Shown: positions 18,028 through 28,389 of the stretch, piece after piece | How positions within the stretch are numbered: the first letter of the stretch is position 1 | Layout of the letters: every line of letters starts with the position of its first letter | DNA from: a bacterium | GTDB taxonomy: Bacteria; Cyanobacteriota; Vampirovibrionia; Gastranaerophilales; Gastranaerophilaceae | Assembly: GCA_017403285.1 (NCBI GenBank) | Contig: JAFQOI010000088.1 | Coordinates: 1 to 59,561, forward strand | Direction: 5' to 3' | Length of the DNA: 59,561 nucleotides | Notes under the pieces: generated by a model | Told to the model about the DNA's origin: nothing | What the model saw: the letters and a program-made list of their open reading frames with translations, nothing else | Database searches by the model: none | Program-made: the position numbers and the translations under genes

Positions 18028-18066
18028 TGGATAGTAAATAGGCTATTTGTTTTGTCGTCGTTTTTT

Positions 18067-18075
18067 TGATAAAAT
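18067..18075 (+). promoter_or_regulatory. Extended -10 element before the tonB-like gene
   Basis: TG (18067-18068), A, TAAAAT (18070-18075), 23 bases before ATG 18098. It suggests the tonB-exbB-exbD-exbD operon has its own promoter. Confidence 0.45.
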
Positions 18076-18097
18076 AAAGGCAAATGAGAATTTAGGG

Positions 18098-19264
18098 ATG
18101 TCAGTTTTACAAAATAAAGATAATTCAAAATTAAATAAAGGTAGGGATGCTGTTTATGAGATCCCTGCCGTTATCAGAGAAGAAAAAGAAGATATAAGTT
18201 TTTATAAAGCGTTTATAATCTCTTTTCTTCTTCATCCGTTAATAGTTATCTTTGTTATTTTAGTATCTTTGATACTTAGATATTTGGGTTTACATTTTGA
18301 TTTGTTTAAAAAACCGGATTTGAAACCAAAAGATATAGAATTTGTGCTTGTTGAAAAAGAAGCACCACCTATAAATAAAAATACAAAAAATAGATCAGAT
18401 AAAAATTCACAAGCAGGTGGAAAACACGATCCAACAAGAAAAGAATCGTTACCACAACCAGCGGCAAAAAAGGCAGAAAATAAAACAGCAACACCAAATG
18501 TACCGGCTAAAAAACCAGCGACACCCAAACCACAGGTTCAAAAGCCACAACAGAAACCGCAACAACAAATAGCACCAAAGCAAGAGCAAAAAGTGACTCA
18601 AACACCTGCTCCAAAAGCACCTGCGCCAAAACCAACTCCAGCGCCGGCTGCTCCAAAAGTAACACAAAAACCAAATTCGACATTTAATATACCTGTACCA
18701 AAATCGTCAATTCCGCAAGTGGCACAGCCCACTGCTCCGTTGACTCCTGCTCCCAAAATTGGTGGTGGTGGAACAACAACAGGGGTTAATGGTGGAACTG
18801 GCAGTTCGCCGGCACCTACTTTCTCTCAATCTTCGGCTTCTTCTACAAGGGGAGGAATGACTGGTGGAAGTGGTAGATTCTCTGCGGCTAGTGGATATGG
18901 TAGTGGCAATGTGGGTAATCCAAGCCCTGGAAATCCTAATGGTGCTCCTGGTATAGATGCCATAAAAGAGCCAGATTTTGGACCTTATATGAAAGAACTT
19001 CAAAGACGTATTAAAATGAATTGGGATCCTCCAAAAGGAAATGAAAGCAAACGAGTTGTACTTTTATTTACCATAAGTAGAGATGGTAGACTTATGAGTG
19101 TAAAAGTTTACAGGTCTTCGGGGCTTCAAACGGCTGACAATGCTGCAGTAAATGCGGTTAAGTTAACTGCGCCATTTAGACCTTTACCTCCAGAATTTAG
19201 AGGAAATAGTGTTGATATCCAATTTACGTTTGATTATAACGTATTAGGTGCTTCACTCAATTAA
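18098..19264 (+). CDS. tonB: TonB/TolA-like energy transducer
   Basis: The product is about 388 residues from ATG 18098 (an in-frame TTG at 18047 lacks support). A cytoplasmic N-terminus of about 50 residues precedes one membrane helix (IVIFVILVSLILRYLGL). Then comes a long Pro/Ala/Lys/Gln-rich periplasmic spanning region (about 100-230) and a Gly/Ser-rich stretch. The C-terminal domain of about 90 residues (YMKELQRRIKMNWDPP, FTISRDGRLMSVKVYRSSG, ADNAAVNAVK-PFRPLPPEF) is a TonB_C/TolA_C fold. It should couple the proton gradient, through ExbB and ExbD, to outer-membrane receptors or envelope integrity. No TonB-dependent receptor lies nearby, so it could be the Tol-like version. Confidence 0.88.
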   Translation: MSVLQNKDNSKLNKGRDAVYEIPAVIREEKEDISFYKAFIISFLLHPLIVIFVILVSLILRYLGLHFDLFKKPDLKPKDIEFVLVEKEAPPINKNTKNRSDKNSQAGGKHDPTRKESLPQPAAKKAENKTATPNVPAKKPATPKPQVQKPQQKPQQQIAPKQEQKVTQTPAPKAPAPKPTPAPAAPKVTQKPNSTFNIPVPKSSIPQVAQPTAPLTPAPKIGGGGTTTGVNGGTGSSPAPTFSQSSASSTRGGMTGGSGRFSAASGYGSGNVGNPSPGNPNGAPGIDAIKEPDFGPYMKELQRRIKMNWDPPKGNESKRVVLLFTISRDGRLMSVKVYRSSGLQTADNAAVNAVKLTAPFRPLPPEFRGNSVDIQFTFDYNVLGASLN

Positions 19265-19299
19265 AAGAAAAGTAAAAAATAAGAAAAGAGGAAATAATT

Positions 19300-19935
19300 A
19301 TGGAATTACTATTAACTTCGATTAAAATGGACTGGCCAGTATTGCTACCAATATTACTTTGTTCATTGCTTACAGTTGCTGTTGCGATTAACAGATTTAA
19401 TTTTTACAATAAAAATCAAAGAGATGTTGTTAGATTTATTAGAGCATTAAAAACAGAATTGGTTAATAACAGACTAGAAGCAGCAAAGAGCCTAAGTATA
19501 CAATTGGGTGGTGTTATAGGCGAAGTCGCAGAAGAAGCAGTTAGAATTTTTTCTGAACAAAAAGTGGGATTTTCTCGTTCTTTTGATATTTCTGCCAACC
19601 TTGCAACAAGAAAATTAGAAAAATATTTAACAATTCTAGGTACTGTTGGAGGGGTTTGTCCTTTCTTGGGTTTATTTGGTACTGTTGTTAGAATATTGTA
19701 CACATTCCAAGATTTGGCATCTCAAGGTAATCAATCAGCAGCAGTTGCAGAAGGTATTGGTTCCGCTCTTATTGCTACTGCTTTCGGTTTAGGTGTTGCT
19801 ATTGTTGCAGTTGTTTTGTATAACCTTTTTCAATCAACAGTCAAAAGATATGAAGATGATTTTCAGTTAATAAAATTATTGTTCTTAAGTTTTACTGACT
19901 CAGAAGAAAAAGTTCAAACAAAAGCTTTAGTATAG
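19300..19935 (+). CDS. exbB: ExbB/TolQ-family proton channel subunit
   Basis: This 211-residue inner-membrane protein has three helices: about 12-32, about 115-137 and about 150-172. The MotA/TolQ/ExbB segment between residues 100 and 175 contains LTILGTVGGVCPFLGLFGTVVRILYTF and SAVAEGIGSALIATAFGLGVAIVAVVLYN. It forms the pentameric stator with ExbD that powers TonB. RBS GAGGAAATAATT. It lies 35 bases after tonB and 9 before the first exbD. Confidence 0.93.
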   Translation: MELLLTSIKMDWPVLLPILLCSLLTVAVAINRFNFYNKNQRDVVRFIRALKTELVNNRLEAAKSLSIQLGGVIGEVAEEAVRIFSEQKVGFSRSFDISANLATRKLEKYLTILGTVGGVCPFLGLFGTVVRILYTFQDLASQGNQSAAVAEGIGSALIATAFGLGVAIVAVVLYNLFQSTVKRYEDDFQLIKLLFLSFTDSEEKVQTKALV

Positions 19936-19944
19936 GAAATAAAA

Positions 19945-20457
19945 ATGGCATTTTCGAATCAGGATAATAAAAAATCTTTATTTACAGAGATTAATATAAC
20001 TCCGTTAACTGACATCTTTTTGGTATTACTAATCATAATGATGGTAATAGCGCCCTCTTTTCAGACAATGGATACGGATATTAATATTCCTGAAATTAAT
20101 AGTGGCATTGCAATTGAACAAAAAAATGCGACAATATCTGTTACTAAGCAAGGGCAGTATTATATTAATGGTAAACAAATTACACCAGAAGCATTGGTTG
20201 ATGAGTTAAATGCGCTTAAGCCAGTGCTAGAAAAACATGAAGTTGTTGTAAAAGCTGATAGTGAAACTAAAAGTAGCGAAATATTGAAAATAATGAAAGC
20301 AGCACAAACAGCAGAATATGAAAAACTTGTTGTAGCAGGTGAACCACTTACCAAAAAAGAACAACGAGAACTTGAAAAAACGTCAACTGCTAAACAAGCA
20401 GAAATAGAACAACCAAAACAGAAAGTTAATGCCCAAGATTATGATTGGGATGAATAA
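19945..20457 (+). CDS. exbD: ExbD/TolR-family protein, copy 1 with charged tail
   Basis: This 170-residue bitopic protein has the family's INITPLTDIFLVLLIIMMV segment, including the essential membrane Asp (TD). A periplasmic domain follows, with ISVTKQGQYYINGKQI and KADSETKSSEILKIMKAAQ. The last 40 residues or so are a Glu/Lys/Gln-rich extension missing from copy 2. The copies share most of their membrane segment, yet the codons differ at many synonymous sites, so the duplication is old. Confidence 0.92.
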   Translation: MAFSNQDNKKSLFTEINITPLTDIFLVLLIIMMVIAPSFQTMDTDINIPEINSGIAIEQKNATISVTKQGQYYINGKQITPEALVDELNALKPVLEKHEVVVKADSETKSSEILKIMKAAQTAEYEKLVVAGEPLTKKEQRELEKTSTAKQAEIEQPKQKVNAQDYDWDE

Positions 20458-20468
20458 GGAAAACTAAA

Positions 20469-20858
20469 ATGGCAGGACAAAGAAAAACATTTAATGAAAT
20501 AAACATTACTCCTTTAACCGATATCTTTTTGGTTTTACTTATCATAATGATGGTTATTGCTCCTTTATTAGACCAACAAGGGTTAAATTTGGCAGTGCCT
20601 AATGTTATAGAAGTGCAAGATGAAATAAAAGATTCTAAATTGATAAAAATAACAGTTACCGATACTGATAAATATATGGTTGATGATATTGAAATTACTG
20701 CTAATGAGTTGGGTAATTATATAAAAGAAAATGTACAGGCAAATCCAGATGGGCTTTTAATTTTAACCCAAGAACAATCGACACATGGTGCTGTTGTTAA
20801 ACTAATGGATGAAGCAAGAAATGCTGGTGTTACAAATGTCTCTATTTCAGAGTATTAA
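20469..20858 (+). CDS. exbD: ExbD/TolR-family protein, copy 2
   Basis: This 129-residue second ExbD has the same membrane segment INITPLTDIFLVLLIIMMVIAP, then a short periplasmic domain ending TQEQSTHGAVVKLMDEARNAGVTNVSISEY, the usual family ending. Together with copy 1 it could form a hetero-dimer in the ExbB pore. It lies 11 bases after copy 1. Its stop directly abuts the convergent kinase gene. Confidence 0.92.
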   Translation: MAGQRKTFNEINITPLTDIFLVLLIIMMVIAPLLDQQGLNLAVPNVIEVQDEIKDSKLIKITVTDTDKYMVDDIEITANELGNYIKENVQANPDGLLILTQEQSTHGAVVKLMDEARNAGVTNVSISEY

Positions 20859-23759: not shown

Positions 23760-26700
23760 ATGCTGATACAGGGAAGTTCTAATACAACCAGAAATAAACT
23801 TCTTATAGAAAAATATAGGAGTTTAATAGAGCAGGGTGTTGAACCTTGTGAAATACTTGTTATTTTATTAAATCCTTATAAAAAAACAAAATTTGTTAGG
23901 GATTTAGAAAGTATTGGGCTTCAAGTTTGTGATAAATCTAAAATATATACTTTAAATGGACTCTATTATAATGCTTTTAGAGAAAATTCTGAGTATATTA
24001 AGTCAATTATAAAAGATAAGGATTGTCGAGAATTAAATCAGTGTGGGCTTGAAGTTTCCCAATATATTTTTAAACAGTGTATAAAGGAAGCAGATTTTAG
24101 CGATTATATTTCAAAGGTTAATCTTCTTCACCAACTTTTTAGGCGTTATTCTTTGATTGTTCAAAATGCATTGAGCGATGAAGAAATTGATGAGCGTTCT
24201 AAAATTGTAGATGAAGTTTTTGCGAAGGATGCATACAGGGCAATTAGAAATTACAAGCAAAAAACAATAGAATATAAAAGTTTTGATTATCTAAGACAAG
24301 CAGCAATATTTCCTTTGATATATAAGAATACTGATTATTTTGCTGATATAAAATATTTAATAATTGATGATGCAGATGAATTGCCTTATATGTTTTGGCT
24401 GTTTGTTGATTATATTACTCCTAAATTAAATGAACATTTTATTGCTTATGATGAAAAGGGTTCCTCGAGATGTGGGTATCTTTGCGCTTATAAATCTGGG
24501 GTTGAGGAATTTAAATCTAAATATAAAACTGAGCAAGTTATTCTTGAAGATAAAGGTGCTCATAGTGAGACTGCGACTAAGTTATTTTATACAATAAAAA
24601 ATGGCAAGAAGATACAATTGGATGATTATTTAATTAAATCAACGGTTAATCGTTTAGATATGATAGATATGGTTTTTTCTGATGTTAAAAAATTGATATC
24701 AGCAGGAGTAAAACCTCATGAATTTGCGATTATAACGCCAGTGCAAAATGATTTGCTCGAAAAAAGTGCTCCATCTATTGGGCTTAATTTTCAATATCTT
24801 TCAGGTAGTGAAAAATTATCTGATGTAAAAGGGATAAGGCACATAATTTCAATATTGAAACTTGTAAATGGAATAGTAATAAATGATTATGAAATTAAAA
24901 GTCTTTTGATAAATTTGCTTGAAATTCCATATAGAAAGTGCATTGATATTATAAAGGATTTTAAAAAATCTAGTTTTAAAGAATTTGATTTTGAAAATGA
25001 TTTATATAACACGAAATATCAAAAACTTAGAAGTATTTTAAGTTCTTTGCAAAATATAAAATATACTATTTCTGAACAAATAAAAATTATTTATGACAAT
25101 TTGATAAAAGAGTATATTCCTTCAGAAAATCATATAAAATATGAATTTTTACTTAAAGAGGCACAATCATTTGAGGCTGCGTTTAAAGGTAAGGTTGAAA
25201 ATTTTGTGTATGAGTTTATTGTTCAGATTGAAAATAGTGTTATTAGTGAAAATCCAATAAATTCATTTAATCTTAAAAACAATGAGATAATAATTTCTTC
25301 ACCGCAGAAAATGATAGATTTTTCAATCAATGTTAAGTATCAATTATGGGTGGATATATCTAATTCAGATTGGGTTAAAAATGATACGGGGACTTTATAT
25401 AATGCTTGGGTATTAAATAGAGATTGGACGAAAAAAGAATATACGCTTAATGACAATATAGAATTAACTAATGATAAAACTGCTAGGGTTGTAAGGAAGT
25501 TAATGCTGTTGGCGCAAAATGAAGTTAGGTTCTATTCTAGCGTATATGATAGTGAAGGAAATGAAAATTTTGGTGGGCTTGCAGATTTTATTTCTTTTTC
25601 GGAGGTCAAAAGAAGTGAGTGTAAAATAATTCCTAGAGATGATCAAAAACCAGTTCTTGATTATAAACGAGGGAAAATGGGTATAATGGCGGTTCCAGGA
25701 GCAGGTAAAACAACTATCCTACTCGCTCTTATTATGAAACTTATTAATTCAGGTATTTCGCCAGAAAATATTTTTGTTCTTACTTATATGGAGTCTGCGG
25801 CAAAAAATTTTAAAGAACGTATTAAAATTGGGCTTCCTGATGGTGCTGAAATCCCTAATATTTCTACAATACATGGGCTTGCTCTTCGTATAATTAAAGA
25901 AAATAGCAATTATATAAAAAGTGGATTGGATGAAAATTTCGAAATTTGTGATGACAGTGAAAAAGAAAGAATTATCAAAGAACTTTTTTATAAACTTAAA
26001 ATTCAAGATGATAAATATGATAATTATTTAAGGGGTATTTCTATTGTTAAACACATTGTTAATACTATAAAATTGCAGTCTAAATACCAAGAAATTCAAG
26101 AGTTTTTTAATTTTTTCAAAGAATACAATAATGTTTTAAAACAAAAAAATCTTATTGATTATGATGATATGCTTAGGTTCGCAGTGCAAATTTTGCGTGA
26201 AAATAAAGAAATAAGAGAGTATTATCAAAAATTATGTATTTATATTATTGAAGATGAAGCACAAGATTCTACTGAAATTCAGCAAACGCTAATTAATATT
26301 TTAAGTGGAAAAAACAATAATGTTGTAAGATGTGGAGATATAAATCAATCTATTACTGCTACATTTACAAATTCTAACCTTGAGTCATTTAAGAAATTTA
26401 TTAATGAAAATAATAAGGTAGAAATGGTTTCTTCTCAAAGATGTGCAGCGTCTATTTATAATCTCGCTAATAAATTAGTTGAATTTGTAATAAATGATGA
26501 CGATAAAAAACAGTCATTTTATCAAATTAAAATGAGGGGAACAGAAAAAAATCCAAAGTCGGATATTGTTCCTGAATATATGATTTTTGAACAAGAAAAA
26601 GAGGAAAAGGATTTTATACTTGCTCAAATAAAGAAAATTCAAAAAGAAAAGCCAAAATCTTCCATTGCAATATTATTGAGGTTAAATTCAGATGTTAATA

Positions 26701-27554
26701 AATACAATGAATTTATAACATCTAATGGAATAAAAACTGCAATAAGAACGGATTCTTTAGCCCAAAAGGAAATATACAAATATATATATGCTGTTTTAAA
26801 TATTGTAGAAAATCCATTTAATAATAAGATAATAAAATTACTGGCAGACTTATATTTGATAGGCGTTTCAGAGTTTAAGAAGAAACAAGTTCATAAATTT
26901 TTTGAAAACCTAAATATACCATTTATAAATATAAATTCTGATGAAATTGAAGATGAAATATTGTCTCAATTGTACTGGGATATTGATTATTGGCTTAATA
27001 GAGCAGATAAAGAAATAGAAGATATTGCTTTGAATGTTGGGTTATATTATTCAAAAACTTCAGTTGATAAATCCAATACTTATTTAATTTCAACCTTTAT
27101 AAGACGATTAAGAGAAAATAATTCATCTGTGGATTTTTTAAAAACACTCGAGTACTATGCTAAAAAACCAATGAGTGCATATAAATTCTTTGAAGATGAA
27201 AATGGTGAAGATAAGAACATTGTTAGTATTATGACTATGCATAAATCAAAAGGAGATGAATTTGATTATGTCTTTATTCCTCAATTGAATGAAGATAGTT
27301 ATCCTGTTGAGATAGAGAATGTTAAATTAAAAAGTGGTAGTCATTTTGTTGAAACAATAAAAAATGCGGTTACTAATTGTGGTATTAAAACTCCTGATAA
27401 TTTGAAAAAAGAACAAATAGAAGAAACTTTGAGGCTTTTGTATGTTGGAATTACAAGGGCAAAGTATGGATTGTTTTTATCTAGTGCTAAACATTATTTG
27501 GCAAGAAAAAATGTAAAAACATCTAAAATCATTGATTTTATATTGGATAATTAA
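23760..27554 (+). CDS. Giant UvrD/Rep-like helicase with a degenerate second helicase unit
   Basis: This is a 1264-residue protein. The C-terminal half (about 620-1264) is a complete superfamily 1A helicase. It has Walker A VPGAGKTT (about 644-651), Walker B IIEDEAQDS (about 829-837), GDINQSI, IVSIMTMHKSKGDEFDYVF (about 1153) and LLYVGITRAK (about 1225). The N-terminal half repeats the layout in broken form: GSSNTTRNKLL replaces Walker A at residues 5-15, YLIIDDADELPYMFW stands for Walker B near 200, and EIIISSPQKMIDFSINVKYQLWVDIS resembles motif V. This recalls AddB/RecC-type pairs with one inactive helicase, here in one chain. I see no nuclease motif at either end. It probably acts in DNA recombination or repair. 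Confidence 0.85.
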   Translation: MLIQGSSNTTRNKLLIEKYRSLIEQGVEPCEILVILLNPYKKTKFVRDLESIGLQVCDKSKIYTLNGLYYNAFRENSEYIKSIIKDKDCRELNQCGLEVSQYIFKQCIKEADFSDYISKVNLLHQLFRRYSLIVQNALSDEEIDERSKIVDEVFAKDAYRAIRNYKQKTIEYKSFDYLRQAAIFPLIYKNTDYFADIKYLIIDDADELPYMFWLFVDYITPKLNEHFIAYDEKGSSRCGYLCAYKSGVEEFKSKYKTEQVILEDKGAHSETATKLFYTIKNGKKIQLDDYLIKSTVNRLDMIDMVFSDVKKLISAGVKPHEFAIITPVQNDLLEKSAPSIGLNFQYLSGSEKLSDVKGIRHIISILKLVNGIVINDYEIKSLLINLLEIPYRKCIDIIKDFKKSSFKEFDFENDLYNTKYQKLRSILSSLQNIKYTISEQIKIIYDNLIKEYIPSENHIKYEFLLKEAQSFEAAFKGKVENFVYEFIVQIENSVISENPINSFNLKNNEIIISSPQKMIDFSINVKYQLWVDISNSDWVKNDTGTLYNAWVLNRDWTKKEYTLNDNIELTNDKTARVVRKLMLLAQNEVRFYSSVYDSEGNENFGGLADFISFSEVKRSECKIIPRDDQKPVLDYKRGKMGIMAVPGAGKTTILLALIMKLINSGISPENIFVLTYMESAAKNFKERIKIGLPDGAEIPNISTIHGLALRIIKENSNYIKSGLDENFEICDDSEKERIIKELFYKLKIQDDKYDNYLRGISIVKHIVNTIKLQSKYQEIQEFFNFFKEYNNVLKQKNLIDYDDMLRFAVQILRENKEIREYYQKLCIYIIEDEAQDSTEIQQTLINILSGKNNNVVRCGDINQSITATFTNSNLESFKKFINENNKVEMVSSQRCAASIYNLANKLVEFVINDDDKKQSFYQIKMRGTEKNPKSDIVPEYMIFEQEKEEKDFILAQIKKIQKEKPKSSIAILLRLNSDVNKYNEFITSNGIKTAIRTDSLAQKEIYKYIYAVLNIVENPFNNKIIKLLADLYLIGVSEFKKKQVHKFFENLNIPFININSDEIEDEILSQLYWDIDYWLNRADKEIEDIALNVGLYYSKTSVDKSNTYLISTFIRRLRENNSSVDFLKTLEYYAKKPMSAYKFFEDENGEDKNIVSIMTMHKSKGDEFDYVFIPQLNEDSYPVEIENVKLKSGSHFVETIKNAVTNCGIKTPDNLKKEQIEETLRLLYVGITRAKYGLFLSSAKHYLARKNVKTSKIIDFILDN

Positions 27555-27594
27555 TCATAAGTAAAAATAAAAATTAATATTCATTAACAAAATG

Positions 27595-27623
27595 CTGATA
27601 TTCTCAAAAGCAAATGCTATAAT
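27595..27623 (+). promoter_or_regulatory. Promoter of the BlaI-like regulator operon
   Basis: CTGATA (27595-27600), a 17-base spacer containing TG at 27615-27616, then a perfect TATAAT (27618-27623), 63 bases before ATG 27686. Confidence 0.65.
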
Positions 27624-27685
27624 AGTAGTATTAAAGTGTTTAAAATTATTTTTTATATAAAAATTGAATATTAAAGGATGGATTC

Positions 27686-28033
27686 ATGGCGTATACACAC
27701 GGAACTTTAGAGAATGAAATCATGAATGCTGTTTGGACTATGGAAGAAAATGGCATCAATGCAAAAGACATTTCAGTAAGCGAAGTACTAGAAGAAATTA
27801 ATAACAATGGTAACGTAAGAGCGTACACCACAATAAAGACAGTCATGGATAGACTTGTTGATAAAAATTTGTTAAAAAGACAAAAATTTGGTAAGAAATT
27901 TTGTTATAAGTCAGTAGAAAGTCGTGCAGAAATGGCGGCTACTGCTATTAATAGACTTGCTGGTCAATTTTTTAATAATGATATGACATCATTAATGCGA
28001 GCACTAGAAAAACAATGCAGCGTAAGAGCGTAG
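27686..28033 (+). CDS. BlaI/MecI/CopY-type winged-helix repressor
   Basis: This 115-residue protein has the Penicillinase_R pattern. LENEIMNAVWTMEENG begins the first helix. ISVSEVLEEINNNGNVRAYTTIKTVMDRLVDKNLLKRQKFGKKFCYKSV is the winged-helix DNA-binding part with the conserved Y-T-T-I-K-T-V-x-x-R-L. A short C-terminal dimerisation part follows. Members repress beta-lactamase or metal-resistance genes and are usually released by a BlaR1-type protease, but none is in the window. An AAAGGATGGATTC stretch serves as ribosome-binding site. Its end overlaps the next gene by 19 bases in another frame. Confidence 0.85.
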   Translation: MAYTHGTLENEIMNAVWTMEENGINAKDISVSEVLEEINNNGNVRAYTTIKTVMDRLVDKNLLKRQKFGKKFCYKSVESRAEMAATAINRLAGQFFNNDMTSLMRALEKQCSVRA

Positions 28034-28389
28034 ATTACACAAATTTTAGAAAGCAAGTTTCAGAATTATATATTGCTGTACTTACTAAAAATCTTTCAGT
28101 AAGAGAGGCGCTAAGTTCCTTTCCTCAGGATTGTGAGGATAAGACTATTATTGCAGCTTGGCACGCACTTTGTCATCTTGAAGCTGACGAAGATTTGAGA
28201 GCTAAGGATGAAATGTATAAAAAAGAGCAGGATGAATATATTAATTTTATTGCGTATACCCTAGATAAGGGGGAAGAACTCCCTGAAAATATTGTTAATT
28301 CTTATCTTCCTTATCATGAAAATGCATTGGTTGCTAATTCAACAAAGATTAAAGGTATTTTGCAAAATTTAAAGAAATTTTTGTCCTAA
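28015..28389 (+). CDS. Unknown small protein overlapping the BlaI-like gene
   Basis: This 124-residue soluble protein is not recognised. It is helical by composition and carries AAWHALCHLEADEDLRAKDEMY in the middle, then LDKGEELPENIVNSYLP. Its start lies inside the final codons of the BlaI-like gene, so it is probably translated by coupling and could modulate that regulator or be its target. No signal peptide or membrane helix. Its start at ATG 28015 has no independent ribosome-binding site. Confidence 0.65.
   Translation: MQRKSVDYTNFRKQVSELYIAVLTKNLSVREALSSFPQDCEDKTIIAAWHALCHLEADEDLRAKDEMYKKEQDEYINFIAYTLDKGEELPENIVNSYLPYHENALVANSTKIKGILQNLKKFLS

Follow-up and report, generated by a model that had tools for sequence, protein, structure and literature searches.

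The gene at positions 23760–27554 of the window (the whole 59,561-nucleotide stretch of DNA that was analysed) is a single open reading frame with an ATG start that encodes a 1264-aa fusion of a pseudo-helicase and a helicase; the gene, its motifs and the three intervals after it described below are all on the forward strand. The reading that we favour, to which we assign a probability of roughly two in three, is that this protein is a single-chain AddAB-type motor for DNA-end processing whose own nuclease is now gone in the window's genus. The preliminary description of this DNA had proposed an active and an inactive helicase joined in one chain in the manner of AddA/AddB or RecB/RecC, a proposal that is supported by the fold, the motif state and the profile comparisons. 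The strings on which it drew (GSSNTTRNKLL from residue 5, IDDADELP from residue 202 and SPQKMIDFS from residue 514) are present in the translation, and a Pfam search of the 1264 aa likewise detected no PD-(D/E)XK nuclease domain. The genome of which the window is part comprises 2.23 Mb in 162 contigs, and Candidatus Gastranaerophilales MAGs are its closest relatives that bear names. Orthologues of the fused protein were found in most of 98 relatives, at full length where the contig permits.

A working motor and a decayed copy in one chain

The C-half (residues 623–1264, positions 25626–27551) was identified by Pfam and fold matching as an active-type UvrD/AddA helicase and the sole intact motor of the protein. 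The full UvrD/Rep motif set described earlier was recovered here, with Pfam matches to UvrD-helicase (7e-45) and UvrD_C (2e-22) spanning residues 629–1244. Its Walker A motif, GAGKT (residues 647–651, positions 25698–25712), is intact in 30/30 sequences of the genus and 48/48 overall and lies within the family signature AVPGAGKT, which differs from the VVAGAGSGKT of PcrA-like paralogues. Motifs I, II, III, V and VI are conserved in 42 sequences; specifically, every residue of motif II (EDEAQDS, residues 831–837, positions 26250–26270) is invariant, as are V, R and A of motif VI (RLLYVGITRAK, residues 1225–1235, positions 27432–27464). In the model of a close, shorter orthologue (L026; 1200 of 1221 residues, pLDDT 85), the C-half matched UvrD with Z 37 and AddA with Z 31.6 (583 residues, 24% identity); the pTM of this full-length model is 0.71, so the relative placing of the two halves is only moderately sure. 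By sequence, the nearest NCBIfam models to the C-half are PcrA and Rep (PcrA 4e-51), yet its scores fall below the cut-offs for pcrA (174 bits vs 911), rep (161 vs 951) and addA_Gpos (99 vs 707.65), and the fused protein gave no match to an AddB model in NCBIfam. The motif set and the fold are thus those of PcrA, UvrD and Rep, but the fused protein differs from them in the motor-dead copy in front and in lying far under the equivalog cut-offs.

The N-half (residues 1–622, positions 23760–25625) is predicted from an AlphaFold2 model, fold searches and profile alignment to be a UvrD-fold pseudo-helicase, an AddB-like module. On its own it had no sequence match in NCBIfam or PDB and nothing useful in PHROGs, and a profile search of PDB returned weak matches only, PcrA among them at E 0.21. 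Because these direct searches were unproductive, its tie to helicases runs through outgroups, structure and profile comparison. Two class-outgroup N-halves matched Pfam UvrD-helicase above the cut-off (3e-7 and 1e-7), with a third below it (4e-4). Additionally, the broad N-half family profile aligned with the C-half family profile across 587 columns (E 2e-20), corresponding motif regions falling opposite each other, so that the repeated layout noticed in the preliminary description is real. The model of residues 1–622, built from 42 aligned orthologues (pLDDT 89, pTM 0.87), has a RecA-like UvrD fold, and no profile match to an unrelated family was found. It matched UvrD/PcrA from end to end with Z about 30, AdnB with Z 24.6 (569 residues, 4.6 Å) and AddB with Z 22.9 (about 566 residues), while the N-half of the L026 model matched AddB with Z 22.1 (539 residues). 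We regard the N-half, on the strength of these models, as a complete, motif-decayed second helicase copy. In the fold search AddB ranks below UvrD, and the grounds for assigning the N-half to AddB are therefore the architecture, the lost motor and the nuclease partner; the N-half profile matched two AddB proteins in part (E 8e-6, 223 columns), and since that match is only partial, sequence alone places the N-half no nearer to AddB than to UvrD.

The decay of the N-half Walker A motif, GSSNTTRN in the window (residues 5–12, positions 23772–23795), was followed by row comparison. A search for homologues in which the first Walker A is intact was successful (GPTGSGKT, GPLGSGKT, GDPRSGKT), and GK[TS] is present in 8/9 rows from outgroups or other families. 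Among other genera of the window's family, GK[TS] occurs in 0/9 and xKT without the glycine in 9/9 (lysine kept in 9/9); in the window's genus, GK[TS] occurs in 0/30 and the lysine is kept in 9/30. The aligned rows point to a stepwise decay from GKT through NKT to none. In another family (L050), the N-half Walker A was lost independently with the nuclease gene retained, so Walker A loss and nuclease loss are not strictly coupled. Other positions have been held: the motif II-like DDADE (residues 203–207, positions 24366–24380) aligns with motif II of the C-half, and its D206 and E207 are invariant in 42 sequences, as are Q516 and D520 of the motif V-like SPQKMID (residues 514–520, positions 25299–25319). 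The glutamine of motif III is missing in the rows inspected and the TRA arginine finger of motif VI is absent from the fused N-halves inspected, which makes an early loss of the second motor probable. In some probable photosynthetic cyanobacteria, traces of motif VI resembling SRA or NRA survive in the N-module, which may therefore have been an active helicase in the past.

A separate nuclease in relatives and its loss in the genus

A search for a separate PD-(D/E)XK nuclease gene, suggested in the preliminary description, succeeded in relatives and found no stand-alone copy in the window's genus. A nuclease gene of about 190–240 aa overlaps the helicase gene or lies shortly after it in other genera of the family and in several further families, and in two class outgroups PDDEXK_1 genes of 283 aa and 267 aa overlap its end; in some genomes the nuclease is unlinked to the helicase gene. 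The encoded protein is PD-(D/E)XK and Cas4-like, with invariant catalytic residues (GxxxH, E, D, DxK, QxxxY) and, as a rule, four Fe-S-type cysteines. At L053 (G042), the gene immediately after the helicase gene encodes a 188-aa nuclease that keeps the catalytic residues and lacks the first and the three C-terminal cysteines. At L058 (G051), two short genes, which by eye resemble a nucleotidyltransferase (MNT) and a HEPN protein, lie between helicase and nuclease, about 450–1130 bases past the helicase gene.

Comparison with locus L056 (G058) located the site of the missing gene. There the order is helicase, nuclease (225 aa), BlaI and a 128-aa gene, while in the window and most of the genus-g1 loci examined it is helicase, BlaI and a 124-aa gene. 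The interval where relatives have the nuclease gene is empty in the window (27555–27685) and is followed by a BlaI/Penicillinase_R-type regulator (27686–28033; Pfam Penicillinase_R 3.6e-19), which comes after the helicase gene in most g1 loci examined, and then by the 124-aa gene (28015–28389), whose place after BlaI is shared by most g1 loci and L056; both serve as synteny markers. The tblastn matches within the gap were short and scattered (E 0.05 and worse) and give no credible nuclease remnant. A family-profile search over 98 genomes found the small stand-alone nuclease gene in 0/41 genomes of the genus; draft genomes may miss genes, but these 41 agree on the absence. Relocation within the genus was rejected, as nearly all the profile matches listed were long frames of the size of a 1033-aa UvrD-PDDEXK protein. 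In the helicase tree the genus and G052 group together, with G058, which keeps the nuclease, as their sister. This topology requires the nuclease to have been lost twice, once in the common ancestor of the genus and G052 and once in G056. The nuclease was lost on the branch leading to the window's genus and G052, its closest sampled relative.

The 1033-aa protein just mentioned combines UvrD and PDDEXK_1 regions, is encoded at L045 6992–10093 (contig C148 of the window's genome, G000), is the sole PDDEXK_1 match in that genome and resembles the UvrD-Cas4-like fusions described in PMC5704561. It raises the alternative that the nuclease was replaced and not lost, with this protein, or a diverged gene, binding the fused helicase. 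PDDEXK proteins of about 1020–1035 aa occur in most genomes of the genus, a point in favour of such a replacement, but frames of this size were matched in most of the 98 relatives, including genera with a linked nuclease, so the protein is not a replacement gained by the genus; the profile search, moreover, found no stand-alone copy. We consider this explanation unlikely.

Proposed mechanism and relation to known systems

Under the favoured reading of a single-chain AddAB-type motor, the C-half would be an ATP-driven UvrD/AddA-like helicase, with the 3'-5' polarity of its family. By analogy, the N-half would occupy the place of AddB, gripping, splitting or scanning the unwound strand fed to it by the C-half and possibly reading it. 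To our knowledge, no Chi has been reported for the window's order. In AddB, the helicase-like domain scans for Chi and has an ionic latch (PMC4824097). Ancestrally, the cutting of the strands would have fallen to a small PD-(D/E)XK nuclease of the Fe-S type, a separate subunit encoded directly downstream. The enzyme of the genus most likely still unwinds DNA ends, its presumed substrate, for RecA-dependent repair, where it may also load RecA and take part in recombination; degradation would be left to nucleases acting in trans, for example a candidate RecJ or the UvrD-PDDEXK protein of the genome.

A different role, which we hold to be improbable, is that the helicase of the genus no longer takes part in end resection and has become a PcrA/Rep-like translocase or accessory helicase, with the N-half as a clamp, acting in replication restart or in the removal of RecA or roadblocks. 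The proximity of the C-half to the PcrA/Rep models, the nuclease loss in the genus and the further decay of the N-half Walker A in just this lineage are all consistent with such a change. Against it, both halves are under strong purifying selection within the genus with no sign of a shift (dN/dS 0.08–0.20 for the N-half and 0.05–0.17 for the C-half, with synonymous sites near saturation for the more distant pairs), the invariant residues of the N-half are common to the genus and its nuclease-bearing relatives, and two further UvrD-family helicases, neither with a nuclease match, are already encoded in the genome (frames of 825 and 680 aa). A role in anti-phage defence instead of repair is very improbable: PADLOC models for GajB and for the RT-associated helicase match the C-half down to 1.6e-49, but this is the general UvrD level, like that of PcrA, the gene sits among housekeeping genes and is kept across the order, and no GajA-like partner was seen adjoining it. 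Elsewhere in the window (18047–20858), a cluster resembles, by eye, a TonB-type protein, an ExbB/TolQ-like protein and two ExbD/TolR-like proteins.

When compared to known systems, the single-chain motor that we propose is most like AddAB (PDB 3u4q, 4cej; Bacillus-type), in which a dead helicase-like AddB is paired with the working SF1A helicase AddA; compared half by half, the N-half folds like AddB and the C-half like AddA, and the nuclease of the relatives is of the same Fe-S PD-(D/E)XK kind. In contrast to AddAB, both helicase modules are in one chain with no nuclease domain on either half, and whereas AddA and AddB each have a C-end nuclease, the relatives have one separate small subunit and the genus has none. 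By this analogy the fused protein would work like AddAB; it is not filed as AddAB because the chain lacks nuclease domains, scores far below the AddA cut-off and has no AddB match. RecBCD also pairs a motor with an inactivated helicase, and the RecB chain matches the C-half with Z 26.6 and the N-half with Z about 20, but RecC (Pfam PF04257) has no match in the window's genome and the RecC carriers of the phylum are mostly without the N-module family. The mycobacterial AdnAB likewise has two UvrD-like modules, to one of which, AdnB, the N-half matches, but it consists of two chains, each with its own nuclease, where the present protein is one chain without a nuclease domain. In one survey AdnAB was found only in Actinobacteria (PMC6452273). 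UvrD-Cas4-like fusions and UvrD/Cas4-like operons, including those of Clostridiales, similarly link a UvrD-type helicase to a pfam12705 nuclease, but no pseudo-helicase half is described for them (PMC5704561). The fusion was not described in the literature searched, a body of work that subscription journals mostly lie outside, and earlier reports, such as AddAB surveys across phyla, are possible.

Distribution across the phylum and biological meaning

The preliminary description suggested a possibly lineage-specific enzyme. The fused form extends beyond the genus to the majority of genomes in the window's order and to some of the outgroup families within the class, and its modules reach phylum-wide as separate genes. 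In G108, within the phylum and outside the class, three overlapping genes encode an N-module (673 aa), a C-half-like helicase (712 aa) and a nuclease (280 aa) in the same order as in the fused system, but as an unfused operon. In other genomes (L119–L126, L136–L145), probably those of photosynthetic cyanobacteria to judge by phylum, genome size and gene content, the three modules are scattered genes, comprising an N-module (about 685 aa) whose Walker A is intact, a helicase of 739–797 aa with the signature AVSAVPGAGKS and a nuclease of 261–279 aa.

Across 386 genomes of the phylum (threshold E 1e-15 for N-module and nuclease), the N-module was present in 310 and the nuclease in 297. Both occurred in 295 genomes, the N-module only in 15, the nuclease only in 2 and neither in 74 (Fisher p 2e-61, genomes treated as independent); 10 of the 15 genomes with the N-module only belong to the window's genus and make up its entire sample. 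RecC was found in 62 genomes, of which 57 belong to family f40 and have no N-module match and 5 others have both (p 2e-45, related genomes treated as independent). Additionally, a linked pair of AddB-like and AddA-like genes accompanies the fused helicase at L130 4265–10352 (G056; 931 and 1125 aa) and L152 621–6999 (G058; 989 and 1141 aa), the small nuclease being lost in the former genome and kept in the latter. These pairs, and the five genomes with RecC and the N-module together, indicate that the fused enzyme is not a strict substitute. One genome (G299) has a diverged second copy of the N-half family on contig C18 (23546–25384; frame 1132 aa, E 4e-222) and a normal copy on C28.

The genes recB, recC or recD are reported as missing from model cyanobacteria and as present in marine Prochlorococcus and Synechococcus (PMC5101192), which bears on how double-strand-break repair starts in much of the phylum. 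We give even odds to the broader view that a distinct, phylum-wide helicase-nuclease replaces RecBCD in most of the phylum and has become a nuclease-free end-unwinding motor in the window's genus; its three dissociable modules are the pseudo-helicase, the motor helicase and the small Cas4-like nuclease. Being widespread, with the N-module largely absent where RecC is found, these modules are a testable candidate for break repair in tractable strains, and the window's genus is a natural experiment in which the motor is held under selection without the nuclease and the second ATP site has been lost by degrees.
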